Shown piece by piece: positions 7,671 to 43,939 of a DNA stretch of 43,939 nucleotides. This stretch comes from a virus. A program made the translations under genes and the position numbers. Each line of letters begins with the position of its first letter. The first letter of the stretch is position 1. The DNA is taken from the IMG/VR virus record IMGVR_UViG_3300027822_000021, positions 1 through 43,939 of that record. One strand, given 5' to 3'. Under the pieces are notes generated by a model, which searched no databases, was not told where the DNA came from, and saw nothing but the letters and a program-made list of their open reading frames with translations.

Positions 7671-7687
7671 ATAGTTAGAGGAGTCGC

Positions 7688-29690: not shown

Positions 29691-29977
29691 TGCTGCCTGA
29701 ATGGGAAAAACTTGCTGAATGGGGTGCTATCTTGATTACCGGGTTCGGAGTAGTTTTTGCTTCCGGTAAGAATAGACAAGCGCAGGTTGAGAACAGAAAA
29801 TGCATTGACGAACTCAAAAAAGCTGTGTTTCCAGAAGATCCTGGCCGTGAAATTATTAGGCAATCTGACCTTGATCGGCAATGCGCTCAAATCGAAAAAT
29901 TGTTTGCAGTGATGGAGAGAAACCTGATCCAAAGCATTGAGATTATTTTGAATAAGGAAAAAAATGATAATTCATGA
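29690..29977 (+). CDS. Membrane-anchored coiled-coil protein, possible spanin or holin partner
   Basis: ATG 29690 overlaps the previous stop. The 95-residue product has an N-terminal hydrophobic segment near residues 11-26 (WGAILITGFGVVFASG) followed by a charged helical region to the end. This layout, one membrane anchor with a soluble helical domain, fits an inner-membrane spanin subunit or a second holin/antiholin. No embedded outer-membrane lipoprotein partner frame was recognised, which leaves spanin uncertain. Confidence 0.5.
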   Translation: MLPEWEKLAEWGAILITGFGVVFASGKNRQAQVENRKCIDELKKAVFPEDPGREIIRQSDLDRQCAQIEKLFAVMERNLIQSIEIILNKEKNDNS

Positions 29978-30320
29978 TATGCCAGTTGGCAGATTTAAAG
30001 GGGAACGGTTATTTGTGCTAACTGAGCAGTTCCGGGTATATTCCGATGTTTTGCAAGTGTGGTTTACCATACCAGCAGGGTTTACTTGTGATCTTGAAAC
30101 CATGCTTTTTATTAGGGGGCTTTGCAGGGAGGGAGGATTAATTCATGATTATTTTAGCAGGATCGACTCAGAGCCTATCGTCACACAAAAAGTTGCGGCA
30201 AACGTTTACAGGGAAACACTCCAATATTTTGGCCATCCTGCTTGGAAAGTTAGTATCAAATATTGGGCTGTAAGGTTTGCCGCAGGTTATTTTCACAAAA
30301 AAAAAGTTTTAGACGCTTAA
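29964..30320 (+). CDS. DUF1353-like phage protein
   Basis: The 118-residue protein has the DUF1353 signature: FTIPAGFTCDLETMLF, then GGLIHDYFSRID, then a helix and the end WAVRFAAGYF. This family is common in phages near lysis and tail genes. Its function is unknown, although conserved Asp and His residues suggest metal or substrate binding. It overlaps the previous gene by 14 bases and is the last gene of the long rightward unit; its stop overlaps the stop of the convergent HD gene by 4 bases. No strong terminator separates the two. Confidence 0.75.
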   Translation: MIIHDMPVGRFKGERLFVLTEQFRVYSDVLQVWFTIPAGFTCDLETMLFIRGLCREGGLIHDYFSRIDSEPIVTQKVAANVYRETLQYFGHPAWKVSIKYWAVRFAAGYFHKKKVLDA

Positions 30321-30832
30321 TAATCTTGCTTTTGTAAAAAATATTCTTGTACTATGTTGTCCGCTATTTGAAATAAATGAGCATCACCTGTTTTTAATAC
30401 TTTCAAAAGAGCTTTTTTCTCAAGCATATAAACTGCCGCAAACTTAGGGTCATATTTGCATATACTTTTAGAGTTGTCGATCAAATCAGCCAGTTTAATC
30501 GTTTTGACTTTATCTGAAAATTGAGAGATGTGCATTCTGTCTATTTCTTTACGCACCTTTCTATTCCCATCAGAGAAGATAGAGACATCTGTTAATCCTT
30601 CAACGAGATAAGCTATTTTTCCCCCAAACTCTTTTCCTATATCATCCAAAGATATGTCTGTATCTTCTACAACATCATGAAGCAAGGCCGCAGCAATCAT
30701 GTCGCTATCAGAGGTTACCTTATGAACCAGTAGGGCCACTGCAACCGGGTGAGTAATATACGGTTCACCAGTGTACTTTCTTATTTGGCCTTCATGAGCT
30801 TTAGTAGCAAATGCTCTAGCTTCTTTTATCAT
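30317..30832 (-). CDS. MESH1/SpoT-like HD-domain (p)ppGpp hydrolase
   Basis: The 171-residue protein covers one HD domain, with the ligands and motifs of the SpoT/MESH1 hydrolase: GQIRKYTGEPYITHP (His28), LLHDVVEDTD (His52, Asp53, Glu56, Asp57) and KLADLIDNS with a late Asp. There is no synthetase domain, so it should only cleave the 3'-pyrophosphate of guanosine alarmones or act on related nucleotides. In the host it could switch off the stringent response during infection. It is last in the leftward operon, 1 base after the previous stop, with GGAG ahead of the ATG. The same operon carries a MazG-like gene. Confidence 0.8.
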   Translation of the reverse strand: MIKEARAFATKAHEGQIRKYTGEPYITHPVAVALLVHKVTSDSDMIAAALLHDVVEDTDISLDDIGKEFGGKIAYLVEGLTDVSIFSDGNRKVRKEIDRMHISQFSDKVKTIKLADLIDNSKSICKYDPKFAAVYMLEKKALLKVLKTGDAHLFQIADNIVQEYFLQKQDY

Positions 30833-30833
30833 A

Positions 30834-31247
30834 TTAGTATTCTCCCATTAATTGTGCGGCCTTTATATATTCAGCATTTAAATTAAGATTCCTATCAAAA
30901 TATTTATGTAGACTGTTAACTGCCGACAAACACCCTTCAACGGCTATCTTTCTTTTTGCAGACAAATGGCCTAAAGCGTCACCAAAGCCTAACAGGCACA
31001 TTGAGGTTACGCATGCTATATGGATACGCTTTGTATGCTGCAATCGGTAGACTTGTTTTCCGATTCGATTACAGTCCTTGGACCCGAGTATCAATTCAGG
31101 ATATAATCGCCGTGCCGAATGAAACCGGCTATCAATTTTTTTTAGCATTTTTTCAACTGTTTTTGATGGTTTGTTTACACGCATCAATTCGGGTATTATA
31201 GCCATTATTGCCAGGTACTTTAATATGTTCCTCTCTCCTTTGCTCAT
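30834..31247 (-). CDS. Hypothetical helical protein (137 residues)
   Basis: ATG at 31247 follows AAGGAA. The protein is basic and helical throughout (ILKYLAIMAIIPELMRVNKP, KIDSRFHSARRLYPELILGS, CVTSMCLLGFGDALGHLSAK). I recognise no family. It lies between the interrupted-frame gene and the HD hydrolase in the same tightly packed operon. Its ribosome site overlaps the TAA that ends the read-through extension of the gene upstream. Confidence 0.55.
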   Translation of the reverse strand: MSKGERNILKYLAIMAIIPELMRVNKPSKTVEKMLKKIDSRFHSARRLYPELILGSKDCNRIGKQVYRLQHTKRIHIACVTSMCLLGFGDALGHLSAKRKIAVEGCLSAVNSLHKYFDRNLNLNAEYIKAAQLMGEY

Positions 31248-31256
31248 TTTATTTCC

Positions 31257-31346
31257 TTAGTGACGTGCCATATTTTTTATGTTCAAACTGAGTTCTCGTA
31301 ATAAAACTGGAAGCTCCGCAAGTTCTGCCGGGAAAACTTGGTCTTC
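31257..31346 (-). pseudogene. In-frame coding extension beyond the UGA
   Basis: Beyond TGA 31347-31349 the frame stays open for 29 codons with protein-like composition (EDQVFPAELAELPVLLREL, SLNIKNMARH) to TAA at 31257-31259. Without it, there is a gap of about 100 bases in an operon where genes otherwise nearly touch. A perfect 6-bp hairpin (CAAGTT/AACTTG, 31319-31340, 10-base loop) starts six bases after the UGA, as in some recoding signals. Either a cut-off tail or a read-through product. Confidence 0.5.
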
Positions 31347-31592
31347 TCACCCTTCTGGAGGTGGCTCGGGCGCACTTGCGCAAGATGTATTTCCGGATGC
31401 AAAAAAACATTCGTCTTCTATCGTATCTCGGTATGCTTTTAACACCGCAGACTCAAACACAAAGGGTAATTGAAGCCCGGCTATATTCATCTTTCGTATT
31501 TCAACATGGTCATGTGTGCCGGTTTCTTTTTCGCCTCTGTGAACTTGATACTCAACCGTTACCGGTATGTCTACTTTACATTTTTCAATCAT
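31347..31592 (-). CDS. Small protein ending at an in-frame UGA
   Basis: The ATG at 31592 follows a good AAGGAGA. The 81 residues begin MIEKCKVDIPVTVEYQVHRG and include a His/Asp/Glu stretch (THDHVEIRK). They end CASAPEPPPEG at a TGA (31347-31349). The same frame then continues for 29 codons (EDQVFPAELAELPVLLREL...) to a TAA placed ideally before the next gene's ribosome site. PPPEGWEDQ would read as one natural protein if the stop were Trp. So the gene may carry a nonsense mutation, or be read through. No function is recognised. Confidence 0.6.
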   Translation of the reverse strand: MIEKCKVDIPVTVEYQVHRGEKETGTHDHVEIRKMNIAGLQLPFVFESAVLKAYRDTIEDECFFASGNTSCASAPEPPPEG

Positions 31593-31607
31593 TTTGTAAC
31601 GTCTCCT

Positions 31608-31865
31608 TTATTGATAGAAAACAGAATCAATGTATCTACTATTTATCCTTGTCGTAATTCTATCACCACGATAAACGGCGAACCAAAACTCACCGTTTAT
31701 TTCTTGATAAGGTTTTATTTTATCCTCAGAGTTGGTTGAAACATCACAATTTTCCATGGCTCCGCAAATCCTTTTTATATTCCTTGTATCGTCAATAATA
31801 CTTACAGTCTTATATATTGTAGCCTCTTCGCTGTTCGCCCACTCTGTATCCCTTTGACCGGTCAA
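31608..31865 (-). CDS. Hypothetical small protein (up to 85 residues)
   Basis: The frame can start at TTG 31865, which has no clear ribosome site, or at the ATG at residue 36 after GGAG, giving 50 residues. The second half (YQEINGEFWFAVYRGDRITTRINS) is like small beta-rich phage proteins with a FWxAVYxGD segment. The gene lies between the MazG-like gene and the interrupted-frame gene in the leftward operon. It is likely real in its C-terminal part; the start is unsettled. Confidence 0.5.
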   Translation of the reverse strand: MTGQRDTEWANSEEATIYKTVSIIDDTRNIKRICGAMENCDVSTNSEDKIKPYQEINGEFWFAVYRGDRITTRINSRYIDSVFYQ

Positions 31866-31879
31866 GATTAAATCATTAT

Positions 31880-32332
31880 TTATGAATTTTCTAATCTATG
31901 AATCATTCGTTCGCTCTTCCTCTCTATCCAGGCATTTACTTTTTCTTCCCCTATTTTAGCAGATAGCTCATTAAGTTTTTTGCGGAAAAAATAGAAACAT
32001 TCTTTTAATCGCTTTGTATCAAATTCTTCATGCATGAAGTCGGATAGCCAAGACTGAGTGTCACCGATTACAGACATGATACTTATTGAATCTTTAATAT
32101 TATCCAATAATCTTTCTTCTTTTTCCGTTATTTTCCCGAAAATAGTATCCATCTGATTTAAAACCAAGTAGCAATCGGCCATTTCTTCGGCTACGTGGTC
32201 TTGAACAAATTGGCCGATTTTTAGACGGCATAGCGCTGCTGTAAGTTCTGCGCCTTCCTCAATCATCTTATATGCTTGATTTTGCTCGCCGTATTTCTTT
32301 ATTACGGCTTTAGCTAATTCTGTTTTAGTCAC
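31880..32332 (-). CDS. MazG-like nucleotide pyrophosphohydrolase
   Basis: Start GTG 32332, one base after the Dam-gene stop, with AGGAG upstream inside that gene. The 150-residue all-helical protein has the MazG metal motif: Glu25-Glu26-x2-Glu29 in MIEEGAELTAAL and Glu50-x2-Asp53 in AEEMADC. MazG-type enzymes hydrolyse NTPs or dNTPs to monophosphates, and phage forms have been proposed to lower alarmone levels or clean nucleotide pools. The C-terminal 60 residues are an extra helical part. Being in one operon with an alarmone-type HD hydrolase supports a role in nucleotide or stress signalling. Confidence 0.75.
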   Translation of the reverse strand: MTKTELAKAVIKKYGEQNQAYKMIEEGAELTAALCRLKIGQFVQDHVAEEMADCYLVLNQMDTIFGKITEKEERLLDNIKDSISIMSVIGDTQSWLSDFMHEEFDTKRLKECFYFFRKKLNELSAKIGEEKVNAWIERKSERMIHRLENS

Positions 32333-32333
32333 T

Positions 32334-32840
32334 TTATCCCTGCTCCTTTGTGTTTACAAAAAATCCTAAGCTCCTTAAAGAATGGAGTTTCTTCGTGTTC
32401 TCTGCTCCCCATGCTACCAACATTGAACCAATACCAGCTCCAGATTTGCCAGTCTTGCCATATAAATCAACAAATTTTATCCTACCACGTAAAAAGAGGA
32501 TGCCACCTGCTTTTACGCAAATGTCCTGGAACCATTTGCAATCAGTTCTTGCAAATACAAGGGAAATTCCTTGCCCATGATTATTTAATTTCTCCAACCA
32601 TGCTTTTGTGTGGAGGCCATATGGTGGGTTCAGCCATACATTCCCAGTCCAAGTTTTTGACAATCCGTCATCTTCCTTAGTATATACCTTATGAGCTGGA
32701 ATCCATGAAAGTATATCTAATACTGGATGACAAGGGTCAAGATCAAAAACAAGATTCAAACTTTTAAAAATCCATGTTGGTGTGTACCATTCAATAGTTT
32801 TGTTTTTTGGGTTTTCGTGTGTAAAGCCTGCATGTGACAT
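32334..32840 (-). CDS. Phage Dam-type DNA N6-adenine methyltransferase
   Basis: The 168-residue protein shows the phage N-6-adenine methyltransferase family pattern: EWYTPTWIF at 17-25, FDLDPC at 32-37 (cofactor side), the catalytic NPPY at 71-74, and later FLRGRIKFVD and GSMLVAWG. It would methylate adenine in host or phage DNA, likely protecting phage DNA from restriction or marking it. The ATG at 32840 follows a strong AGGAGG. It is the first clear enzyme gene in this part of the leftward operon, with the MazG-like gene coupled behind it. Confidence 0.85.
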   Translation of the reverse strand: MSHAGFTHENPKNKTIEWYTPTWIFKSLNLVFDLDPCHPVLDILSWIPAHKVYTKEDDGLSKTWTGNVWLNPPYGLHTKAWLEKLNNHGQGISLVFARTDCKWFQDICVKAGGILFLRGRIKFVDLYGKTGKSGAGIGSMLVAWGAENTKKLHSLRSLGFFVNTKEQG

Positions 32841-32857
32841 GCTTTTTTCCTCCTATT

Positions 32858-33073
32858 TCACATTTTAGTCCAAAATTCCCACCATTTTTTACGTTTCCGG
32901 ATTTTTTTTATGTTCTCTTGGTAGGCAATCACTGCAACTGCTATTGTTAAATCAACCGGTTCTCCTTTTCGGATTTTATCGCTTTCGGCGTCAAGTATAT
33001 CGAAAATCTCTGGATTATAATTATACGGTTGTTGAGCCAATATCTCTCTTTCTGTTTCGTTTGTTTTATACAT
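32858..33073 (-). CDS. Small hypothetical helical protein (71 residues)
   Basis: ATG 33073 follows AGGAGA. The protein has a helical body (ILDAESDKIRKGEPVDLTIA, AVIAYQENIKKIRK) and a basic, Trp-rich end (KRKKWWEFWTKM). Such a tail may bind nucleic acid or membrane. No family is recognised. It stands downstream of a structured intergenic region. Confidence 0.5.
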   Translation of the reverse strand: MYKTNETEREILAQQPYNYNPEIFDILDAESDKIRKGEPVDLTIAVAVIAYQENIKKIRKRKKWWEFWTKM

Positions 33074-33097
33074 TATTTTCTCCTATAATTATTTTTA

Positions 33098-33188
33098 AAA
33101 AAGCCAGGTGCGGTAACCCCGATAAATAATAAAAAAGCCCTCCTGAAGGAGTTTTTACTCACGCTTGGGAAGCCGGACGCCTGGCGTC
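33098..33188 (-). terminator. Nested hairpins with T runs (GC-rich structured element)
   Basis: On the minus strand, GCCAGG (33185-33180) can pair with CCTGGC (33108-33103), followed by a T6 run. Inside lies a CTCC-TTCA-GGAG stem followed after three bases by another T6 run; the same stem with A/T flanks also works as a weak plus-strand terminator. A GACGCCTGGCGTC palindrome sits at 33176-33188. The patch is more GC-rich than its surroundings. It may attenuate transcription within the leftward operon or encode a small RNA. Confidence 0.5.
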
Positions 33189-33228
33189 GCCCATTTAAAG
33201 GAGTCAGGATGGCAGATGTTGTTTGGTC

Positions 33229-33405
33229 TTAGTTTACATTTATAGTAATTATTTTTTCTTCAATATGATGATGGATGCTGGTAATTTGGTATGTTTCTTC
33301 TTTTATCCACACGACATCATCTTCGTGCGGAATATATGGAGTAGCCATTTCAAACCTATGAAGGATCTCTCGTGGAAAATTTCTCATTATTTTGTGTTCA
33401 AACAT
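33229..33405 (-). CDS. Small hypothetical protein (58 residues)
   Basis: ATG 33405 follows a strong AAGGAGGA. The frame ends with TAA at 33229-33231. The product begins MFEHKIMRNFPREILHRFE and has a beta-like second half (DDVVWIKEETYQITSIHHHI, then EEKIITINVN). The His-rich turn and strand pattern recall small phage beta-barrel proteins, but no family is assigned. It is a convincing gene by ribosome site and spacing. Confidence 0.5.
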   Translation of the reverse strand: MFEHKIMRNFPREILHRFEMATPYIPHEDDVVWIKEETYQITSIHHHIEEKIITINVN

Positions 33406-33474
33406 TATTTTTATTCCTCCTTGATGCTTTTTAGATTTTGTTTGCCTAAAATATCCATCAAATATTACTGCTGT

Positions 33475-33678
33475 TTAATTTATACAAACCGCATTCAATT
33501 CAACCTCTTGCGTAAACTCTCGTTCACTGCTATCGTAAAAACCAACAGTAGGTGAATAGTGAACTAAATTAAATCCGTTACCCTCATCGTCTTTTGCCGA
33601 AACGACTTCAAGATATGCCGTTTCTGGCCTCTCTTTTAAGAGTTTATTTATATGTTCCGCAAATTTTATTAATTGCAT
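33475..33678 (-). CDS. Small conserved-type phage protein (67 residues)
   Basis: ATG 33678 follows AAAGGAGT. The product starts MQLIKFAEHINKLLKERPE and continues with DDEGNGFNLVHYSPTVGFYD. This order (helix, then a YxSPTxGFY-type beta turn) is seen in short phage early proteins with SxDDEGNxFxxVxYxP, whose function is unknown. It belongs to the leftward early-type operon. Confidence 0.55.
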   Translation of the reverse strand: MQLIKFAEHINKLLKERPETAYLEVVSAKDDEGNGFNLVHYSPTVGFYDSSEREFTQEVELNAVCIN

Positions 33679-33709
33679 AATTACTCCTTTGATTATTATA
33701 CTACCATTA

Positions 33710-33871
33710 TTAAGGTCGGCTGGATTTTACTTGAGAGTTTTTATTTAAAGATATTATTTCTTCTAATTTTTCATAAAACATACTAGGCCCATATAGTTTA
33801 AACATATGCCGCACTGTTTCATAATTTAGACCATAGTCTAAGGCCGTTTTTTTTATAAAAGAATCTTTCAT
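33710..33871 (-). CDS. Small hypothetical protein (53 residues)
   Basis: ATG 33871 follows AGGAGGA, a strong ribosome site. The basic, helical product starts MKDSFIKKTALDYGLNYETV, includes HMFKLYGPSMFYEKLEEII, and ends KSSRP at TAA 33710-33712. The first 30 residues could form a helix-turn-helix-like pair (ALDYGLNYETVRHMFKLYG), so a small DNA-binding role is possible but unproved. Confidence 0.45.
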   Translation of the reverse strand: MKDSFIKKTALDYGLNYETVRHMFKLYGPSMFYEKLEEIISLNKNSQVKSSRP

Positions 33872-33912
33872 TTTATTTTCCTCCTATTATATTAATTATT
33901 GGCACGTCCTTT

Positions 33913-33933
33913 TTTAAGCCCCGGTGCTTTTTT
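33913..33933 (+). terminator. Weak plus-strand terminator-like hairpin
   Basis: On the plus strand AAGC (33916-33919) pairs with GCTT (33926-33929) around a 6-base loop and a T6 run follows. It faces against the surrounding leftward genes, so it could stop antisense or rightward read-through. The stem is short. Confidence 0.3.
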
Positions 33934-33935
33934 GA

Positions 33936-34118
33936 TTATTCCTTTACAATTTCGTCAAGTGCTTCTTGCAATTTTACCTGAAGCAGAGCTTTTGCCTGGC
34001 ACTTGGCCTCTGTTAAATTGGTAGCGTCTAACTCCGTGCGGCAAAAAATGCTACAAGAAGCAAACCATTTTTTGCCGCCACCGTAATAATAATGGACTGA
34101 TAATTTAAAAACACCCAA
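33936..34118 (-). CDS. Small hypothetical protein with TTG start (60 residues)
   Basis: The only in-frame start is TTG 34118, overlapping the end of the upstream gene by 14 bases, without a clear ribosome site, so it depends on coupling. The product (GVFKLSVHYYYGGGKKWFAS, ELDATNLTEAKCQAKALLQ) looks protein-like, with a beta strand pair then a helix. No family is recognised. Confidence is reduced by the weak start. Confidence 0.4.
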   Translation of the reverse strand: MGVFKLSVHYYYGGGKKWFASCSIFCRTELDATNLTEAKCQAKALLQVKLQEALDEIVKE

Positions 34119-34320
34119 CCGGATATTTTTTTAATTCTTTTAGTTTTTCGTCCATGGGCAATGAAATTATGGTATATCCCTCGTCTGTAGCAATCTGAAA
34201 AAACCCAAAATCGAATCTATGCCCAACAATAAATTTTTCATGGTTTGATTCGATTACCCGCATTTCTTTTTCATAAATGAATCCTTTTTCAAGAACCCAT
34301 TTAACGATTATAGTTTTCAT
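34105..34320 (-). CDS. Small hypothetical protein (71 residues)
   Basis: I start it at ATG 34320, after AAAAGGAA, rather than at the upstream start codon at 34359 that would add 13 residues without a ribosome site. The product begins MKTIIVKWVLEKGFIYEKE and has further beta segments (HRFDFGFFQIATDEGYTII). No known family. It is one of the early-type leftward genes. Confidence 0.5.
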   Translation of the reverse strand: MKTIIVKWVLEKGFIYEKEMRVIESNHEKFIVGHRFDFGFFQIATDEGYTIISLPMDEKLKELKKYPVGCF

Positions 34321-34383
34321 GTTTTTTCCTTTTAGTGACTGTGTAACATTATCAACCAACCGCCGAGCTTTTGGTAGGCTATA

Positions 34384-34518
34384 TTACGCCACCCAAATTA
34401 ATAACAAGCCCAAACAAGCCCACCCTATACCAGTGCTGCCATCAGACCAATATATAGAAGCAGCACCCAAAGCACAAATCCCTATTGAAGCCAACCCTTG
34501 ACCTATATTGTTATCCAT
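34384..34518 (-). CDS. Very small membrane protein (44 residues)
   Basis: ATG 34518 follows GAGGTGG. The frame ends at TAA 34384-34386. The peptide has two hydrophobic, Gly/Ala-rich stretches: residues 8-23 (GLASIGICALGAASIY) and 30-44 (TGIGWACLGLLLIWV). It probably crosses the inner membrane twice. Early phage operons often hold such tiny membrane proteins; some affect host or superinfecting phage. No function can be read from it. Confidence 0.5.
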   Translation of the reverse strand: MDNNIGQGLASIGICALGAASIYWSDGSTGIGWACLGLLLIWVA

Positions 34519-34520
34519 AA

Positions 34521-34772
34521 TTACCACCTCATTAAATAATCTTGATATTGTTTCTGGGACATAGCCATTTTGCGAACTTTGCCAATGCCAAGATATTCAA
34601 CCTCGCTAGTCGGGTGAGCGTTGCGAATGACCACTGGCTTATCTGAGTCAAAGTTGACCCCGATATAATGCCCACGATCTTCAGCGATAATCCCAGGCTT
34701 GTTATCAACAACGACACGCCTACCGATACATGCTGGAACTCCGTAATATTTTCTGACATACTCGCGACTCAT
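34521..34772 (-). CDS. Small SH3-like conserved phage protein (83 residues)
   Basis: First gene of the leftward operon; its ATG at 34772 follows GGAGGTG. The product starts MSREYVRKYYGVPACIGRRV and has a clear beta-barrel-like pattern: VVVDNKPGIIAEDRGHYIGV, then NFDSDKPVV and HPTSEVEYLG. Very similar short proteins (IGxRVxVDGxxGxIxxDRGxYIGVxFD) occur in many phages. They resemble KOW/SH3 folds that bind RNA or protein, but no role is established. Confidence 0.6.
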   Translation of the reverse strand: MSREYVRKYYGVPACIGRRVVVDNKPGIIAEDRGHYIGVNFDSDKPVVIRNAHPTSEVEYLGIGKVRKMAMSQKQYQDYLMRW

Positions 34773-34835
34773 TTTTCACCTCCAAGTGCATAACAGTAAT
34801 AAAAGATATATAAAAATTATTCAAATAAAAACTTA

Positions 34836-34886
34836 TACCGACTTACAAGAGAATCATCTCTCTGCTCAAGTTTTGAAGCCATTATA
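34836..34886 (-). repeat. Conserved promoter/leader block, copy 1
   Basis: This 51-bp block matches 41121-41171 without gaps at 42 of 51 positions, including 16 identical bases CTGCTCAAGTTTTGAA (plus-strand sense). Read on the minus strand it begins with the -10 TATAAT, covers the expected start site with the dyad TCAA-AAC-TTGA, and goes ~40 bases into the leader RNA, where AGAGA/TCTCT can pair. It may be an operator, a leader-RNA signal, or both. Confidence 0.8.
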
Positions 34887-34909
34887 AACCAAGAAAAAAA
34901 AGGAGTCAA
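34881..34909 (-). promoter_or_regulatory. Leftward sigma70-type promoter of the early-type operon
   Basis: On the minus strand, TTGACT (34909-34904), a 17-base spacer and TATAAT (34886-34881). Transcription would start near 34874 and run into the leader and the gene at 34772. A-rich DNA lies upstream, as an UP-like element. Confidence 0.8.
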
Positions 34910-34932
34910 GAAAATAATAAAATAAAAATTAT

Positions 34933-34961
34933 TTGACATTTGGATATCCTTATTATAGAAT
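34933..34961 (+). promoter_or_regulatory. Rightward promoter of the XRE regulator operon
   Basis: TTGACA (34933-34938), a 17-base spacer containing the palindrome GGATATCC, and TAGAAT (34956-34961). Start would be near 34968, 33 bases before the XRE-type gene. The palindrome in the spacer is a candidate operator. Confidence 0.75.
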
Positions 34962-35000
34962 ACCAAAAATTCAACAAAAACGAAAACGAAAGGGAAAACT

Positions 35001-35213
35001 ATGGGAAAAGAAGCACCAGTTTACAACCAAAGATTGAAAGGAATGATCCAGGATAGTGGGCTTAAAAATGCTTGGTTGGCTAATCAAATTGGAGTCGATC
35101 AGACTATTATCACCAAGTGGATCAACGGGCAGCGTGAGCCTACGGTCACGCAAAAAAACAACTTAGCTACCTTGTTAAATTGCAAGGTAGCTGACATTTT
35201 TAACGTTATATAA
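35001..35213 (+). CDS. XRE/Cro-type helix-turn-helix regulator
   Basis: The 70-residue protein is a single HTH domain. Its helices run LKGMIQDSG, NAWLANQIGV (helix 2), DQTIITKWING (recognition helix) and KNNLATLLNCKVADIFNVI. The WLANQIGVDQTIITKWINGQ run is the Cro/C1 pattern. It probably binds the divergent control region just upstream, where palindromes and a TCAA-N3-TTGA dyad lie, and represses or times one or both promoters. ATG 35001 follows AAGGGA. Confidence 0.85.
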   Translation: MGKEAPVYNQRLKGMIQDSGLKNAWLANQIGVDQTIITKWINGQREPTVTQKNNLATLLNCKVADIFNVI

Positions 35214-35226
35214 GGAGAAATATAAG

Positions 35227-35895
35227 ATGGAACAAACAAAAGATGGATATGATAGTAAGATAAATGAATATTACTATCTCAGCAATGGCGAATACGTGTT
35301 TCTGAATGACTATGCTGTAACACATGATGGCAGAAAAGTATTCCTTGTAACGCCTATATTTGAAGGCGAGGCAATTGAAATTAGTGGAGATGGTGATTCT
35401 CATCGTGAAATATTAATGACCTATAAGCATAAAGGCGAAGAGAGATTAGTAGGGGATATTTTTAAAAACCCTCCCTTAGAGAAACTTTCCGAGATTTATA
35501 GAAAAAAACTTTTGCAAATTGAGGGCTTATCACTTACCTTAAGTTTACTAATGGTTGAGGAACAAGCTTTATTAACAAAACATAAAAAAATAAAAGCTGC
35601 CATAGAACGTGATAGGTTATCCCTTAATTCTATGGACAAGGAAACGACAACAGCGAATGAAGAGTTAAAAGATTTGAGTGACAAGGTAAAAGATATGCGG
35701 GCAAATCTTAGTACTTTAGAGGATTCAACGGCGTTATTCACTAATCTTTCAGATTCTGTTTTAATTTCTAAAGAAGAAATTACAAGCCTAAACAAAGATT
35801 CTTTCAAGTTACAATGCCTTGAAGCTGGTGGTGTTGATAATTGGAGTTGGTATTCAGAATCATTAACAGATTTTTTTGAAAGATACCCAAAATAA
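35227..35895 (+). CDS. Hypothetical protein with beta N-terminus and long coiled coil
   Basis: The 222-residue product starts after AAGGAGAA, 13 bases beyond the XRE gene. Residues 1-75 are beta-rich (EYYYLSNGEYVFLNDYAV, KVFLVTPIFEGEAIEIS). Residues 85-185 are a long coiled coil (KLSEIYRKKLLQIEG, ELKDLSDKVKDMRANLSTL). It ends in VDNWSWYSESLTDFFERYP, reminiscent of an interaction tail. No family is recognised. Its place before a DUF1351-like gene and an MBL gene suggests DNA metabolism. Confidence 0.5.
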   Translation: MEQTKDGYDSKINEYYYLSNGEYVFLNDYAVTHDGRKVFLVTPIFEGEAIEISGDGDSHREILMTYKHKGEERLVGDIFKNPPLEKLSEIYRKKLLQIEGLSLTLSLLMVEEQALLTKHKKIKAAIERDRLSLNSMDKETTTANEELKDLSDKVKDMRANLSTLEDSTALFTNLSDSVLISKEEITSLNKDSFKLQCLEAGGVDNWSWYSESLTDFFERYPK

Positions 35896-35909
35896 AATTG
35901 GAGAAAATA

Positions 35910-37049
35910 ATGGAAATTAAAGAGGCATCAGAAATATTAGATATTTCACCGGTAAAAGAAGACTATAATGTAGAAAAAATAAAATATGATACTGAAGAAG
36001 AAATACAAGTAGTTGAAGAACTTTACAGAAATATTCCAACCGACATGACCGTAAAAAAAAATTACGACTTTGTGAAGGATGGTGCAAAAAAAGTAAAAAA
36101 ACTCATTTCCGCAACGGAGAAGCGGAGAAAGGAATTAAAGGCCGACGCATTAGATTACGGCCGCAAGGTAGACAGTATAGCAAAAAAGATTTCAGGTAGG
36201 TTCAAAGTTATCTATGATCCTATGAAAAAAATAATAGTTGATCATGAAACTAAAGAGGAGATAAAAAAAAGAGAAACTGAACGTATTGAAAAAGAACGAC
36301 AAGAAAAAATAGAACTTAGAATAAATAAAATCTCAGGGCTGGCCTCTGAACTAATGCTATCTACAGCGGATGTAATTAAGTCACAAATGGAACTATTGGA
36401 GTTAGATGATGCAAATATATGGGCTGAAGAGTATTCCGATAAGGTAGTTGAGTTAAAAAAAAATACGATGATTCAACTTGACGAACTTTTTAGAATGAAA
36501 TCACAAACAGAGAATGCTAAAAAAAGAGAAGAGGAGCGAAAAGAAAAAGAAAAAAAGGAACGTGAAGAAGAGCAAAAAGCGATCATGGTGGAAAATGCCA
36601 GGCTTGCTGCTGAGAATAAAAAGAATGCAGATGCACTGGAAGCGGCGAATAAAATCATTGCAGAACAGGCAGCAAGGGTTGAATCGGAAAAAATTGCAAA
36701 AGAACAAGCTAAAGAGGAAGCTGAGAAAATTGCAAAAGAAAAAATTGAGGCTGAGAAGTTTGCAATTGCGGAAGCAGAAGCTGAAAAAGAAAGGATCGCA
36801 ATTGCGAAGGCAGAAGTTGAACGATTGATAATAAAAAAACAAGCTTTCCGTGAAGCTGAAACGGCAGCCTGGACTGAAAACGATAGGTTGAAAGCAGGGA
36901 GAAAAAAAGCGATTGATTTAACTATAACACAAGTTGTTGCGGAATTTAGTGAAGCTGCAAAACTTGGAGAAGAAGAGGAAGCTTTTGCGTTTGGTTTAAT
37001 CCAAGCTGTTATAAGCAATAATTTTAAACATTTAAAATGGATTGATTGA
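35910..37049 (+). CDS. Coiled-coil DNA-metabolism protein (DUF1351-like)
   Basis: I choose ATG 35910 after GGAG; an upstream TTG 35898 lies in the ribosome site. The ~379-residue protein has an N-terminal part (about 30-110) with KKNYDFVKDGAKKVKKLISA and KADALDYGRKVDSI. This resembles DUF1351-type proteins that go with phage recombination genes. A very long Lys/Glu/Ala coiled coil follows (about 195-320), and a C-terminal helical domain (about 325-379). It likely acts as a structural or accessory factor for recombination. The DUF1351 link is tentative. Confidence 0.55.
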   Translation: MEIKEASEILDISPVKEDYNVEKIKYDTEEEIQVVEELYRNIPTDMTVKKNYDFVKDGAKKVKKLISATEKRRKELKADALDYGRKVDSIAKKISGRFKVIYDPMKKIIVDHETKEEIKKRETERIEKERQEKIELRINKISGLASELMLSTADVIKSQMELLELDDANIWAEEYSDKVVELKKNTMIQLDELFRMKSQTENAKKREEERKEKEKKEREEEQKAIMVENARLAAENKKNADALEAANKIIAEQAARVESEKIAKEQAKEEAEKIAKEKIEAEKFAIAEAEAEKERIAIAKAEVERLIIKKQAFREAETAAWTENDRLKAGRKKAIDLTITQVVAEFSEAAKLGEEEEAFAFGLIQAVISNNFKHLKWID

Positions 37050-37059
37050 GGGAGGAAAT

Positions 37060-37248
37060 ATGAAAATTATTAAAGTTGATAATTTTGGTTGCGAATCTGT
37101 GTCAGATATACTGATTGCTGAAAATGTTCACAAGGCGTATGCAAAAGATATTGAATTAGCATTGAACGCTAATTTTAGCGGAAGTTGTTCACCAGATTAT
37201 TTCAGATCTGTGGATGATGATTATACACTTTTTATACCAGATTTTTAG
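37060..37248 (+). CDS. Small hypothetical protein (62 residues)
   Basis: Starts at ATG 37060 after GGGAGG, 10 bases past the previous stop. The product starts MKIIKVDNFGCESVSDILIA and ends SVDDDYTLFIPDF, an acidic, aromatic tail. No family known. A good intrinsic terminator follows. Confidence 0.55.
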   Translation: MKIIKVDNFGCESVSDILIAENVHKAYAKDIELALNANFSGSCSPDYFRSVDDDYTLFIPDF

Positions 37249-37263
37249 ATATTTTTTTCATTC

Positions 37264-37291
37264 AAAGCCGGGCATTTTGTTCGGCTTTTTT
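37264..37291 (+). terminator. Rho-independent terminator before the MBL gene
   Basis: AAAGCCG (37264-37270) pairs with CGGCTTT (37282-37288) over an 11-base loop, and the T run goes to 37291. It lies between the small gene and the GTG of the next gene, so the MBL gene is expressed by read-through, antitermination or its own promoter. Confidence 0.75.
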
Positions 37292-37304
37292 ATTGGAGGA
37301 TAAA

Positions 37305-38030
37305 GTGATTAAATTATGCAACTTAGGTTCAGGGTCCAGCGGGAATGCTACATATGCTAAGTTTGATGGATACAGCATTCTGATAGATGCTGGGTTTTCA
37401 TTCAAAGAATTAAAACGGCGATTAAACTTGATTGGTGAATACATTATTGATGTTCGGGCTATTTATATATCACATGATCATAAAGACCATACGCAAGCTA
37501 TACCACAAATAAAAAAACATACTGATATAGAGATTCATCAGAATGTTTTTCCTTCATCAACAATTCTAAGCAAAGACCCTTTGCAGATAAAATCGTTTCT
37601 TCTTCCACATGATTCCCCATGTTATGGTTTTGATTTTAAATATAAAGATTTCAAATTGACTTATATCCCTGATACCGGTTGCATTACTGAAGATGCTGTA
37701 AAAGCATTGTTGGACATTAACGGTATTGAAAACCATGTTGTCATTATTGAATGTAATTATGACCTAAAAATGTTGGCTATGGGGAGGTATAATCATGAAT
37801 TGAAAGAACGAATAGTGGGGTGTGATGGGCACATGGACAATGTTGAAACCGGAAGAATTTTAAAAGAAATTTATCACGACAAGCTAAGATTAGTACTTCC
37901 GTTCCATCTATCCACGGAAAACAATAATATAGAGTTGGTTCAGTACGAAGTGAAAAAAGTAGTTGGAGACAAAGTTCATATAGTATGTTGCGAACAAAAT
38001 AAACCCACTGCTGTATTTTATTACTTCTAA
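37305..38030 (+). CDS. Metallo-beta-lactamase-fold hydrolase (WalJ/YycJ-like)
   Basis: GTG 37305 is chosen: GGAGG stands 7 bases upstream. The ~241-residue protein starts MIKLCNLGSGSSGNATY and has the metal motif His57-Asp-His59-x-Asp61-His62 in ISHDHKDHTQ, a later HDSPCYGF, TYIPDTG, and LPFHLS. This is the MBL fold close to YycJ/WalJ exonuclease-like enzymes. Phages often carry such genes beside recombinase genes, where they may act as exonucleases. Here the DUF1351-like gene is upstream and the Sak4/DUF669/helicase set lies convergent downstream. Confidence 0.75.
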   Translation: MIKLCNLGSGSSGNATYAKFDGYSILIDAGFSFKELKRRLNLIGEYIIDVRAIYISHDHKDHTQAIPQIKKHTDIEIHQNVFPSSTILSKDPLQIKSFLLPHDSPCYGFDFKYKDFKLTYIPDTGCITEDAVKALLDINGIENHVVIIECNYDLKMLAMGRYNHELKERIVGCDGHMDNVETGRILKEIYHDKLRLVLPFHLSTENNNIELVQYEVKKVVGDKVHIVCCEQNKPTAVFYYF

Positions 38031-38036
38031 TTACAA

Positions 38037-39770
38037 TCAAAATGGTACATCATCGTCATACTTACCATCATCAATTATGGTGGTGGTAATCTTTTCTACA
38101 AACTTCATATCTACTAACTCAGGCCATTTACCGTTCTGGTCAAGTTGTACTTCTGTTGGACAGTCTATTACATTAGCATTGTAGGCTTCTTGAAATTCCT
38201 CAACTGACTGTGGGAAAGGTGCAGTAGAAAACTTTTCCCAGGTCTCCATTGCTTTTGTCACGGCATATCCGCTATAAAAATCAGGCATACAGATGAACAT
38301 ATTAATGAATCCGCTATTATATTCAGTTATTGCATATTGTAGTGTTATTTTTCCAAGAAGATTCCCGTTCTCTTTAGATTCATGTATATTGATTTTCATA
38401 TCAATTACATAATACCATGTATGAGGTATTTCAGGAAACAACGGTGCTATTTTTTTAGGCTTAAAAATTATTTTCTGAAGCTCTGGCATTTGCTGGGCTA
38501 TTATTTTTTCGTTCTCTTCTATTGTCCATTCATAGCCACACTTAGGACAAGTACGGATAACAATATGAACCTTCTCATCGCACTCAGGGCAATATTTCTC
38601 ATTTTTTTTTTTACCCTGCTCCAGTACAAGTTTTGGAATGACTACTTTCATATTGTCAAGATCTGTCCCAAACTTTTGGGTATTAGTGGTAAGGTCCACA
38701 AGTAAGGCTTTTTCTTTGCCTTTAGCTGTTCTAAGAATACGTCCAATTGCTTGTAAAAAAAAACCAGTTGATTCCGTTGGACGTGCATTTATAAGACAGT
38801 CAAGAGGTGGGAAGTCGAATCCCTCAGCAAGAATATTAATATTTACCATAATCCATTTTTTACCGGATTCCCAGGCGAACATATTTCCTGCTCGTTCAAG
38901 TGCTGTTAATTTAGAATGAATTATTGCTACTTGATCTGGATATATAATCTCAATAGCAGTTTTTAGTTTTTCAGCATGATCTATGGTGCAAGCAAATACA
39001 CAAACATGCTTATAGCCGCCAGCGTATTCCTGTATTGCAGCCGCAGCCGTATTTATATGAATCGTTTTTGTCATCACCTGACCAAGCTGATCAAGAACGT
39101 AATCGCCTGATTTGTCGACAGCTTGTAAATCTATTGTAAGTTGATCATCATAGACCACCTGCCCTTCCAATTTCATGAGATAGCCAAGGTTCCTAAGTTC
39201 CTCATAGGTTATTTTGTGGTTCACTTTTGGGAATAAATTTATGGTTCCTGGTTTACATCTGTTGCCGTAAATGTAACCAGAACTTAAACGATAAGGAGTC
39301 GATGTGCATCCAAAAATTCGCATATTTGGTGTTTTAGCCCTAAGTGTATCAATCACCTGGTCATATTGGGAACCCGTGCCTATTTGAACCTTGTGAGCCT
39401 CATCTATAATCAGGAGATCACAACCTGGATATTCATCTATATTGTTGATAAATGTTTGGATACTGCCAATAGTTACACGCTTGTCTACTTGTTTTTTATT
39501 CAATCCTGCACAACAAACTCCTACATCATGCGGGAGTATATCTGTTTGTTTTATAAAAGTTTCATAGGTTTGCTGAACCAATTCCTGCTTATGCATTAGT
39601 AATAAAAAATATTTATCAGATGTTTTATAATATCTTTCGATTAATCTACAAAACATTAATGTTTTTCCACAACCTACTATACCGTTAAGTAATACATTTT
39701 TTTGGTATCTTAGATCGTTGCTGATAACAGTTAATGCTTTTTTTTGATAATCTCTCGCTACATGCCTCAT
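38037..39770 (-). CDS. SF2 DEAD/DEAH-box helicase with zinc ribbon and SSB-like tail
   Basis: The 577-residue protein has Walker A GIVGCGKT (30-37), DEAH in LLIIDEAHK, a TSTPYRL motif III, and motif VI QAIGRILRT. A four-Cys zinc ribbon follows near 390-420 (CPECDEK, CPKCGYEW). The C-terminal third is an extra beta/helical domain. The last residues are DDDVPF, nearly the SSB C-terminal peptide DDDIPF. It could act as a DNA helicase in replication or recombination. The ribosome site is weak, and a hairpin separates it from the DUF669 gene. Confidence 0.8.
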   Translation of the reverse strand: MRHVARDYQKKALTVISNDLRYQKNVLLNGIVGCGKTLMFCRLIERYYKTSDKYFLLLMHKQELVQQTYETFIKQTDILPHDVGVCCAGLNKKQVDKRVTIGSIQTFINNIDEYPGCDLLIIDEAHKVQIGTGSQYDQVIDTLRAKTPNMRIFGCTSTPYRLSSGYIYGNRCKPGTINLFPKVNHKITYEELRNLGYLMKLEGQVVYDDQLTIDLQAVDKSGDYVLDQLGQVMTKTIHINTAAAAIQEYAGGYKHVCVFACTIDHAEKLKTAIEIIYPDQVAIIHSKLTALERAGNMFAWESGKKWIMVNINILAEGFDFPPLDCLINARPTESTGFFLQAIGRILRTAKGKEKALLVDLTTNTQKFGTDLDNMKVVIPKLVLEQGKKKNEKYCPECDEKVHIVIRTCPKCGYEWTIEENEKIIAQQMPELQKIIFKPKKIAPLFPEIPHTWYYVIDMKINIHESKENGNLLGKITLQYAITEYNSGFINMFICMPDFYSGYAVTKAMETWEKFSTAPFPQSVEEFQEAYNANVIDCPTEVQLDQNGKWPELVDMKFVEKITTTIIDDGKYDDDVPF

Positions 39771-39797
39771 TTATTTTCCAACATTTTTAAATTATTT

Positions 39798-39820
39798 GAG
39801 CGGTCAATTCTTGGCCGCTC
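39798..39820 (-). other. Hairpin between DUF669 and helicase genes
   Basis: GAGCGGTCAA (39798-39807) pairs with TTGGCCGCTC (39811-39820) over ten pairs with one G-U and a 3-base loop. No T run follows on the minus strand. It lies after the ssDNA-binding gene stop, so it may stabilise that mRNA or reduce helicase expression. Confidence 0.6.
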
Positions 39821-39832
39821 GGGGGTTAGTTG

Positions 39833-40324
39833 TTACCAGGGGACGTCATCTGTCGCAGCAGTTTCGGAGGCGGGTGCAGATGTTACAGCCTCTGTCGCTG
39901 GTACAAAATCAGCAGGGGCAGGGTTATATGCTGTGATTTCGTTTTGGAATTTTGTGCTATCCTTCCAGTCTGGCTTGACGTTGACCGTTAACAAGCATGT
40001 CTTTCCGTACATTTGCGATTCGTCAGGAGGAGGAAATGGGACACCGGTCAACCGGCAAATTCGTTTTAAAACACCCTGTCCGATGTCTTGACACATCTTG
40101 GTAGTATGTTGCACATTCAGCCAATCGCGCAGGATTGTATCTGAATGGGCACCCTCAACTATCTGCCACTGTGCCTCGAAAACCTTCCCATTTTTGGCGT
40201 TATTATCTTTTAATTCACTATTAATCATAACAGCTTTATACTTACCCTTTGGCACTAATTGTCTGCCGCCTGTGCCGTCCGACTCTTTTACATCTGCATC
40301 AATACCTATATCCATCAAACTCAT
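39833..40324 (-). CDS. DUF669-type ssDNA-binding protein
   Basis: The 163-residue protein shows the DUF669 order: PKGKYKAVMINSEL, NGKVFEAQWQIVEGAHSDT, a LRDWLNV segment, then GQGVLKRICRLTG and YGKTCLLTVNVK. It ends in a linker and the acidic tip TDDVPW, the SSB-type peptide that recruits replication partners. DUF669 proteins serve as single-strand binding proteins with phage recombinases. The ATG at 40324 follows AGGAGG and the gene sits between the Sak4-like ATPase and the helicase, forming a recombination/repair set. Confidence 0.8.
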   Translation of the reverse strand: MSLMDIGIDADVKESDGTGGRQLVPKGKYKAVMINSELKDNNAKNGKVFEAQWQIVEGAHSDTILRDWLNVQHTTKMCQDIGQGVLKRICRLTGVPFPPPDESQMYGKTCLLTVNVKPDWKDSTKFQNEITAYNPAPADFVPATEAVTSAPASETAATDDVPW

Positions 40325-40340
40325 GTTGTTGCCTCCTGTT

Positions 40341-41078
40341 TTATTTTATTAATTTTAAAAAATCTTTAAATCCAGTTCCCTTTAAGACAGGAATTTCAAA
40401 AGGAACATCATATCTGCATTTCGCTGTAAAGGCGGGTCTTGGCTGCGTAAAGATAGACCGCTCTCCGCTTCCAGTAACTTTAGCCTTTAAGGCACCGTCC
40501 TTTTTGGTTATATAAGCCTTATGATTTAAAAATAAAATTGCATCGCAAAATTCCTCGAATTTTTTTGCAGCCTTTTTATGCAATTTAATAACAAATTGAT
40601 CGTAATTTTCACCTTCTGGATTATTATATGGCTTTATTTCGTTATGGGCTAATAATATAACTGCCATTCCTTTTTCGCTCCAAAGCTTTGTCAGCCCGCT
40701 TAATAATTTTACATGACGATTGATAGCATAATCATACCCTTTTTGATATCCAATATCTGAAATACTTTCTACTCCCTTTTCTATAGCGATCTCTTGATGT
40801 ACGATAGCTTCCCACCAGTCTATTGTATCGACAACAACTGTTTTAAAATCATGATCTTCATTTATCAGCAGACCTATATTTTTATATACATCTGCCACTG
40901 TTTCAGACAATGGGAATCGTTTTGGTTTAATCTCACCTAATCCAGACTCTGTTTGAATAAAAATCGGATTAGGTGCTATAGAAGCCCACGTCGATTTACC
41001 TAACCCGTGAGATCCATGCAATAAAATACGCGGCGGCTCCCGTTTTTCATTAGTTTCTAAAAAATCTTCAAAACTCAT
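40341..41078 (-). CDS. Sak4-like RecA-fold ATPase (single-strand annealing type)
   Basis: The 245-residue protein is a compact RecA-fold ATPase with Walker A GSHGLGKST (22-30), Walker B-like VVVDTIDWW and a sensor-type strand AVILLAHNE near 150. Such phage proteins, annotated as AAA_24 ATP-binding proteins, include Sak4, which works with an SSB-like partner; here that is the DUF669 protein just downstream. It is the first gene of the second leftward operon, with the promoter at 41166-41194 and a ~90-base leader. No separate annealing protein (RecT, Erf) is seen. Confidence 0.75.
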   Translation of the reverse strand: MSFEDFLETNEKREPPRILLHGSHGLGKSTWASIAPNPIFIQTESGLGEIKPKRFPLSETVADVYKNIGLLINEDHDFKTVVVDTIDWWEAIVHQEIAIEKGVESISDIGYQKGYDYAINRHVKLLSGLTKLWSEKGMAVILLAHNEIKPYNNPEGENYDQFVIKLHKKAAKKFEEFCDAILFLNHKAYITKKDGALKAKVTGSGERSIFTQPRPAFTAKCRYDVPFEIPVLKGTGFKDFLKLIK

Positions 41079-41120
41079 TATTTCACCCCTTTAATTAAAA
41101 AACGATATTTTTTAAAACCC

Positions 41121-41171
41121 TACCGGCTTACACGGAAATCAATTCGCTGCTCAAGTTTTGAAATCATTATA
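41121..41171 (-). repeat. Conserved promoter/leader block, copy 2
   Basis: The partner of 34836-34886 (42 of 51 identical, no gaps). It again begins with TATAAT on the minus strand, then carries TTCAAAACTTGAGCAG across the start site and a less regular hairpin in the leader. It lies upstream of the Sak4-like gene, so both leftward operons share the same element. Confidence 0.8.
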
Positions 41172-41194
41172 GACGAAAGATTTATCAATGTCAA
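41166..41194 (-). promoter_or_regulatory. Consensus leftward sigma70 promoter of the recombination operon
   Basis: On the minus strand, TTGACA (41194-41189), 17 bases, TATAAT (41171-41166): both hexamers are perfect. Start would be near 41159, about 80 bases before the ATG at 41078. A-rich DNA lies upstream. Confidence 0.85.
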
Positions 41195-41226
41195 ACAAAA
41201 TTAATAAAAAAAAATAAAAATCTTAT

Positions 41227-41255
41227 TTGACAGCTATAAACAAATTTGTTATTGT
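41227..41255 (+). promoter_or_regulatory. Rightward promoter with operator-like palindrome
   Basis: TTGACA (41227-41232), 17 bases and TATTGT (41250-41255). The spacer contains the 12-bp palindrome AACAAATTTGTT (41239-41250), which overlaps the -10. It serves the HTH gene at 41298 and the primase-helicase. Confidence 0.6.
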
Positions 41256-41297
41256 TTTATTTAGAATAAACATAAAAATTAAAAATGGAGGTATAAG

Positions 41298-41507
41298 TTG
41301 AATAATAACAATCATGATGAATATTTATCAGTTGAAGAATTTACGGAATTTTTAGGAGTTACAAAGCCTACAGTTTATAAATGGTTAAAATTAGGTATGC
41401 CGCATATACAGGTTGAAGGCCGCGGAGTCATTAAAATATTGAAATTCAGATCATTAAATTGGTTAGAAAATTCAACACCTAAAAATGTAAAGAGGATGGG
41501 TAGTTAG
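41298..41507 (+). CDS. Excisionase/MerR-type small HTH protein
   Basis: TTG 41298 is the only fitting start, with GGAGG at 41287-41291. The 69-residue product shows the DNA-binding pattern of excisionase-type proteins: YLSVEEFTEFLGVTKPTVYK, then WLKLGMPHIQVEGRGVIKI and a short C-terminal tail. It probably binds DNA near its own promoter or at the origin, as a replication or transcription accessory; no integrase is present for an excisionase role. Its stop meets the ATG of the primase-helicase directly. Confidence 0.75.
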   Translation: MNNNNHDEYLSVEEFTEFLGVTKPTVYKWLKLGMPHIQVEGRGVIKILKFRSLNWLENSTPKNVKRMGS

Positions 41508-43682: not shown

Positions 43683-43693
43683 AAAAAAAGGTT

Positions 43694-43719
43694 GCATTCT
43701 TTTTTAAAAAAAGGGATGC
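43694..43719 (-). terminator. Hairpin after the primase gene, T run on the minus strand
   Basis: GCATTCTTTTTT (43694-43705) can pair with the following A-run plus GGGATGC (to 43719) with G-U pairs. A T9 run follows on the minus strand (complement of 43681-43689), four bases past the stem, so it may stop leftward transcripts entering the primase gene. On the plus strand the T run is poor. Confidence 0.45.
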
Positions 43720-43848
43720 TTTATTCACTATGTTAAAAATTCTTGTAACACATAAATCACCCCATATCACACCTCAAAAAATACAAAGGTACAAAAATGG
43801 AACAGCCCCCACTGTACCAACAAACATACTGAATTCACGGCACGGATG

Positions 43849-43928
43849 AAATAGAACAGTAGAACAGAGGCCACAGAGAAAATTAAATATATATAGTGTT
43901 GTAACTGGGCTGTACTACTGTTCTATTT
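43849..43928. repeat. Inverted repeat with TAGAACAG iterons near the window end
   Basis: AAATAGAACAGTAGAACAG (43849-43867) matches the reverse complement of 43910-43928 at 18 of 19 bases, the outer 14 perfectly, with a ~42-base AT-rich inner part. Each arm holds two TAGAACAG-like units, and a further ACAGCCC/GGGCTGT pair (43802-43808, 43907-43913) nests around. A T16 run starts at 43924. It may be an origin, a strong terminator, or an assembly fold-back. The rest of 43720-43848 holds no convincing gene. Confidence 0.7.
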
Positions 43929-43939
43929 TTTTTTTTTTT

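Follow-up and report, generated by a model that had tools for sequence, protein, structure and literature searches.

Lambda-type nut sites (boxA/boxB, with N protein) place a promoter-proximal RNA hairpin at two early operons alike. In phage HK022, putL lies just downstream of its promoter, the two put copies sit on early operons, and the structured RNA acts without the help of a phage protein (PMC9378689). In the LoaP system two operons carry a small hairpin (dfn) in their 5′ leaders, which recruits the antiterminator (PMC12691694). RNA antiterminators near the operon starts of mobile elements include conAn of pLS20 and canT of Tn916, and RNA-only antiterminators appear to be few, with put, EAR and canT named and conAn2 acting together with a protein (PMC8955417, PMC11658703).

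The stretch of DNA analysed here (the window) is an IMG/VR virus record of 43,939 bases from an uncultured phage. It carries a tailed-phage capsid gene, and its early region is divergent. Two of its early operons, and operons of two related phages (A and B), begin with similar leaders. Like HK022 put, the leader is promoter-proximal (relative to an inferred start), lies on early operons and occurs twice per genome in the window and in phage B, with one copy found in phage A. However, put is ~70 nt long and has two stem-loops, whereas the leader has ~46 nt and one interrupted hairpin. The put RNA binds the zinc-binding domain of polymerase β′ and suppresses termination in cis; for the leader, an action on polymerase is a proposal. 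Compared by sequence and predicted fold, the leader is no homologue of put, and the HK022 genome gave no match to our leader model (9.8 bits, E 2.7). Unlike nut/N, no conserved boxA was seen by eye in five leaders, and no N-like protein was present among the identified families, although the small unknown proteins could include one. With dfn the leader has in common that two operons each carry a hairpin at the 5′ end, but LoaP uses a UNCG-type hairpin and a NusG paralogue; the NusG family (PF02357) was found in 0/4 phage records (three phages, records possibly incomplete; a control search detected it in 11/14 genomes), and a host paralogue is possible. The conAn and canT systems belong to Gram-positive elements; the canT fragment tested was 452 bp, and conAn operates on many internal terminators, a feature that the leader operons lack. 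A search of the open-access literature, with subscription journals outside it, found no paper on this leader. We regard it as a genuine leader RNA, without an Rfam match, that belongs to a small group of phages and is of the promoter-proximal phage leader RNA type; its function is a prediction.

The repeated block, its promoters and its operons

The early region contains leftward operons from 34772 and 41078, each paired with a divergent rightward operon whose first gene codes for a small HTH protein. A preliminary description had aligned 34836-34886 with 41121-41171 (minus strand) at 42/51 without gaps, and realignment reproduced this identity, with both blocks beginning in TATAAT. An independent repeat finder joined the same two blocks and extended the match to 57 nt at 81%. 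No third copy was found in the window (next best 27/51), and 200 windows simulated with a first-order Markov model gave best matches to the second block of 28.2/51 on average and 32/51 at most, so chance similarity of the two blocks was rejected.

The blocks had also been described as starting at the −10 of two near-perfect sigma70 promoters. This was confirmed by a consensus scan of 29900-43939, in which the top two minus-strand sites were the promoter of leftward operon 1 (34881..34909, −; TTGACT-17-TATAAT, 11/12) and that of leftward operon 2 (41166..41194, −; TTGACA-17-TATAAT, a perfect 12/12). Taken together, promoter-like sites showed no enrichment in the same scan (44 found vs 51.0 expected). 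Based on the −10 spacing and a CA initiator, TATAAT-NNN-TTCA puts the likely starts at A 34874 and A 41159. The element extends 7–8 nt further 3′ than described, since the 3′ arm of a closing stem (P1) lies just outside the block. Compared position by position, the leaders are no more alike than background outside about −20 to +50, and the flanking DNA is not conserved; conservation sets in at the likely initiator and stops where the closing stem does.

Leftward operon 1 (30317..34772, −), downstream of leader 1 and delimited by orientation and spacing, was characterized from ORFs and family matches. It encodes small unknown proteins together with a Dam-like DNA methylase (32334-32840), a MazG-like protein (31880-32332) and an HD phosphohydrolase (30317-30832), all on the minus strand. 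The earlier label of a host-takeover operon suits this content only in part; the T7 gp5.9-like RecBCD inhibitor domain sits outside leftward operon 1, in the rightward XRE operon, as the C-terminus of a larger protein (35227-35895, +). In phage A, a T7 gp5.9-like RecBCD inhibitor domain (L004 768-1172, +) lies within the leader-bearing operon. The divergent XRE gene adjoining leader 1 (35001..35213, +; Cro/C1-type HTH, Pfam HTH_26/HTH_3) has homologues that, by alignment, adjoin a leader in phages A and B too.

Leftward operon 2 (38037..41078, −), downstream of leader 2, carries genes for a Sak4-like AAA_24 protein (40341-41078), a DUF669 SSB-like protein (39833-40324) and a helicase (38037-39770) by Pfam and PHROGs, all on the minus strand. 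The small HTH gene divergent from it (41298..41507, +) is HTH_17-like, with a Pfam HTH_17 score of 25.0 bits that falls below the gathering cut-off of 27. Elsewhere in the window, one frame of 3071 codons (13363-22578, +) has an N-terminus resembling, by eye, a peptidoglycan-cleaving domain, and a 51-base direct repeat (46/51) at 24378 and 26830 (+) joins the starts of two adjacent tail-region genes.

Leaders in related phages

A pattern of the conserved ends matched three IMG/VR contigs (L004, L005 and L006). L004 and L005 are 100% identical over their overlap and represent phage A, in which one leader was found, divergent from the XRE homologue. On L006 (phage B) the leader precedes a Sak4/DUF669/helicase operon, and protein searches identified L013 as the other end of this phage, with a leader that adjoins the XRE gene; phage B is joined by inference from these two contigs, which overlap by 3,724 bases at 100%. 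Five distinct leaders were thus obtained in three phages (W1 and W2 in the window, A1, B1 and B2), at matching operon starts. A fourth phage, C (L017), has the Sak4 operon and its promoter, and the leader is absent from this second locus.

A covariance model seeded on W2, B1 and B2 recovered two leaders kept out of the seed, W1 at 60.8 bits and A1 at 59.3 bits, W2 itself scoring 73.2 bits as a seed member, and the next-best score in the window was 11.2 bits. The leaders of the relatives also bear on whether the block encodes a short leader peptide or is a recent duplication without function. In both window blocks an ATG that overlaps the −10 opens the frame MxSKLEQR...; however, this ATG lies within the −10, 5′ of the inferred start, and is missing in A1, B1 and B2, which rules out a coding leader peptide. 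The leader is conserved between phages whose flanking DNA has diverged, against a recent duplication, and we consider both explanations extremely improbable.

Searches further afield were negative. Rfam gave no match at gathering score in the whole window and sub-gathering listings alone around the leaders; a SNORD107 match (21.5 bits vs a gathering score of 50) was taken as chance. When the W2 leader was compared by blastn with 50,697 phage records, no match exceeded 21 bases (E about 6). In bacterial genome contigs the strict pattern had no match, and the model found no credible leader in 793 bacterial genomes (395 + 398), where 15 candidates per genome were scored among the matches listed, so weak members may be missed. 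One match in each genome set, at 24.9 and 27.1 bits, overlapped long ORFs on unrelated contigs and was taken as chance. In viral contigs a loosened pattern yielded 18 stretches, 4 being the known contigs and the other 14 lacking such a promoter by eye and scoring at most 21.9 bits. Two further loci (L007 and L008) from a promoter-plus-core scan were dismissed as chance matches without a leader.

The capsid protein of the window (1305-2285, +) has Methanosarcina virus MetMV as its best annotated match (51% identity), and by the model MetMV is without the leader. Better capsid matches (62% and 58%) occur in bacterial MAG contigs, from MAGs labelled Pseudomonadota and Syntrophaceae; since the capsid is closer to these than to MetMV, the recorded archaeal host of MetMV is worth checking.

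Secondary structure of the leader RNA

The element spans the inferred +1 to +46/47 in the window and 46-48 nt over the five leaders, and by covariation folds into one interrupted hairpin. The segments TTCAAA[A/G]CTTGAGCAG and TAAG-N-C-[G/T]-GTA are fixed in all five; the bases between and after them vary, and the variable parts pair, in two helices, P1 and P2. In W1 (34828..34874, −; inferred +1 at 34874) the P1 arms are 34874-34868 and 34834-34828 and the P2 arms 34862-34857 and 34852-34847, whereas in W2 (41114..41159, −; inferred +1 at 41159) they are 41159-41153 and 41120-41114, and 41147-41143 and 41136-41132, respectively; these assignments come from the model matches and pair counts. 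The helices flank an asymmetric internal loop, GAGCA / GUAAGNCNGUA, that is nearly invariant across leaders, its conserved strands reading GAGCA and GUAAGUCGGUA in W1 and GAGCA and GUAAGCCGGUA in W2. The closing stem P1 pairs +1..+7 (AAA[A/G]CUU) with [A/G][A/G]G[U/C]UU[U/G] and is supported by one compensatory change, A-U to G-C in B1, and by two pairs varying on one side. P2 is a sequence-variable hairpin with a UGAU-containing loop. It closes on a G plus four pairs, and three of its pairs have changed on both sides.

In a structure alignment of the five leaders, 57/60 cells are paired and 4 pairs have both-side changes, slid registers of the same alignment pair at no more than 69.6%, and the covariation score is 0.467 vs 0.278 when shuffled (reached in 0/500 shuffles); the alignment was fitted to the model's structure, so its pair counts favour that structure. 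For P2 alone, unaligned, 22 fixed-register pairs were counted over four distinct inserts vs a shuffle mean of 11.8 (0/20,000 shuffles). Shuffled individually, the W2 insert was not significant (0.26) and that of phage B weakly so (0.07); five sequences are few, and B1 and B2 have one P2 in common. The phage A insert is 2 nt longer, and the covariance model adds one base per arm. Folding energies were ordinary (MFE z-scores −0.81, 0.29, −0.96, −1.19 and −0.66), and the predicted MFE fold of W2 and B2 differs from the P1/P2 structure. A competing ACUU/AAGU pairing, which excludes P1, is 90% kept without compensation, and of three pairs counted for an inner GCAG/CNGU pairing, two are invariant and one is paired in 1/5 leaders. 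The segment AGUCGGUAGAGC may resemble a tRNA D-arm; ARAGORN found no tRNA.

On these alignments the P1 and P2 helices are supported, and the earlier observation that both leaders can form a hairpin with differing bases is extended by the P2 covariation and by the closing stem. The recurrence in two relatives, the covariation, the 2-nt change absorbed by the hairpin and the conservation bounds at initiator and stem argue for a structured 5′ leader RNA, common to both operons and to the relatives and more than an operator, which we hold to be very likely.

The preliminary description had also offered an operator for the XRE or an excisionase-like HTH protein. In such a scheme a phage HTH protein, the XRE of locus 1, would bind TCAA-NNN-TTGA over the start site and switch both operons. 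The dyad does lie over the predicted start site as described, is present in 5/5 leaders and occurs in the window nowhere else; in addition, an XRE homologue adjoins leader 1 in all three phages, and the TTC just 5′ of the inferred start is invariant though untranscribed. However, the promoter of the XRE gene itself lacks the dyad, and the regulator adjoining leader 2 changes between phages (Cro/C1 type in phage B, HTH_17-like in the window). The conserved positions show no symmetry, and their spacing shifts by 2 bp in phage A. An operator would furthermore leave the conserved GUAAGNCNGUA, the P2 covariation and the 2-nt length change unexplained. As the whole explanation it is disfavoured by these points and appears improbable, but since the dyad does not vary and, within the window, marks the leaders alone, there may still be a DNA-level role at initiation.

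Possible roles of the leader

Variable stems around fixed loops indicate that something recognises the RNA, and the leader is probably a control tag for RNA polymerase or for the message. Going by its position and copy number, we prefer a cis-acting signal of the put/nut kind that alters RNA polymerase. Each block would make up the 5′-terminal ~46 nt of an early mRNA, folding into a structured 5′ leader with P1 closing from the first transcribed base, the conserved internal loop and the variable P2. The nascent leader would bind the transcribing polymerase, either directly as HK022 put does or via a host factor, both of which fit the absence of a NusG-family protein from the four phage records searched, and the leader-bound polymerase would be resistant to pausing or termination throughout the remaining genes. 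With two leader copies per genome, both operons would come under the same cis-acting RNA signal. Taken as a whole, from start site through polymerase binding to antitermination, this chain is a tentative proposal that may well hold, although we stop short of calling it probable.

In the put/nut-type reading that had been suggested earlier, the cis-acting RNA part is strengthened by the recurrence, the covariation, the length change and the conservation bounds; the antitermination part would be a prediction, and terminator scans do not favour it. Intrinsic terminators in the leader operons were mildly above shuffle means with no clear enrichment (six shuffles per region). Operon 1 of the window has one weak candidate near 33136, and operon 2 of phage B has a strong intergenic terminator (−20.4 kcal/mol) between the DUF669 and helicase genes; the leaderless XRE operons carry terminators as well. 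Inside the leaderless XRE operon of all three phages, the scans placed a clean intrinsic terminator before an MBL-fold hydrolase gene (window 37264-37292, +; L012 9982; L044 11170).

Alternatively, the leader could protect the 5′ end, with P1 burying the end of the mRNA and the loop perhaps binding a host protein, so that both early mRNAs would live longer. Consistent with this, the 5′ arm of P1 is made up of the first transcribed bases (for the inferred start site), and the start codons lie 35-55 nt downstream, which leaves the ribosome site outside the element. A plain stabiliser, however, would not need a nearly invariant internal loop, and P1 is short, A/U-rich and weak in folding energy; we therefore consider such a stability element rather unlikely.

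Variable stems with nearly invariant loops are also the usual mark of specific RNA recognition, and the leader might be the binding site of an RNA-acting regulator (a phage or host protein, a small RNA or a ligand) that controls the first genes through translation or premature termination, in the manner of an autoregulated leader or small riboswitch. The mutually exclusive ACUU pairings could act as its switch. Against such a site, neither P1 nor P2 overlaps the ribosome site, no conserved terminator was seen directly 3′ of the leader, and the operon-1 copies begin with unrelated first genes, and we judge it, too, to be unlikely. Both mRNA protection and regulator binding rank close behind antitermination or polymerase modification.

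Within polymerase modification, a more specific form would make the leader a new, short, protein-independent RNA class that acts on polymerase from the first bases in non-lambdoid phages, with the exclusive ACUU pairings (to AAGU, then to the 3′ arm of P1) serving as a folding switch; we regard this form as doubtful. In a bolder form, UUGAGCAG of the leader may pair with downstream GAGCRG hairpins or have a common factor with them. A compact, covarying leader with a fixed internal loop and two copies per genome in uncultured phages would be a small new model for nascent-RNA reprogramming of transcription or for message protection, and a leader cassette of ~50 bp that can be moved between promoters and reporters would be a ready test case.

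Apart from the leaders, a GAGCRG / CYGCUC hairpin containing the leader's GAGCAG core occurs once in the available stretches of each of the four phages. In its phage B copy, 14/16 bases agree with the 16-base core of the leader (chance expectation 0.01 matches); the hairpin pattern was defined after seeing the cases. The hairpins lie at 39798-39820 (−) in the window, 2229-2268 (−) on L006, 5159-5184 (+) on L017 and 7674-7701 (+) on L004, and in the window, phage B and phage C they are placed after the DUF669 gene.
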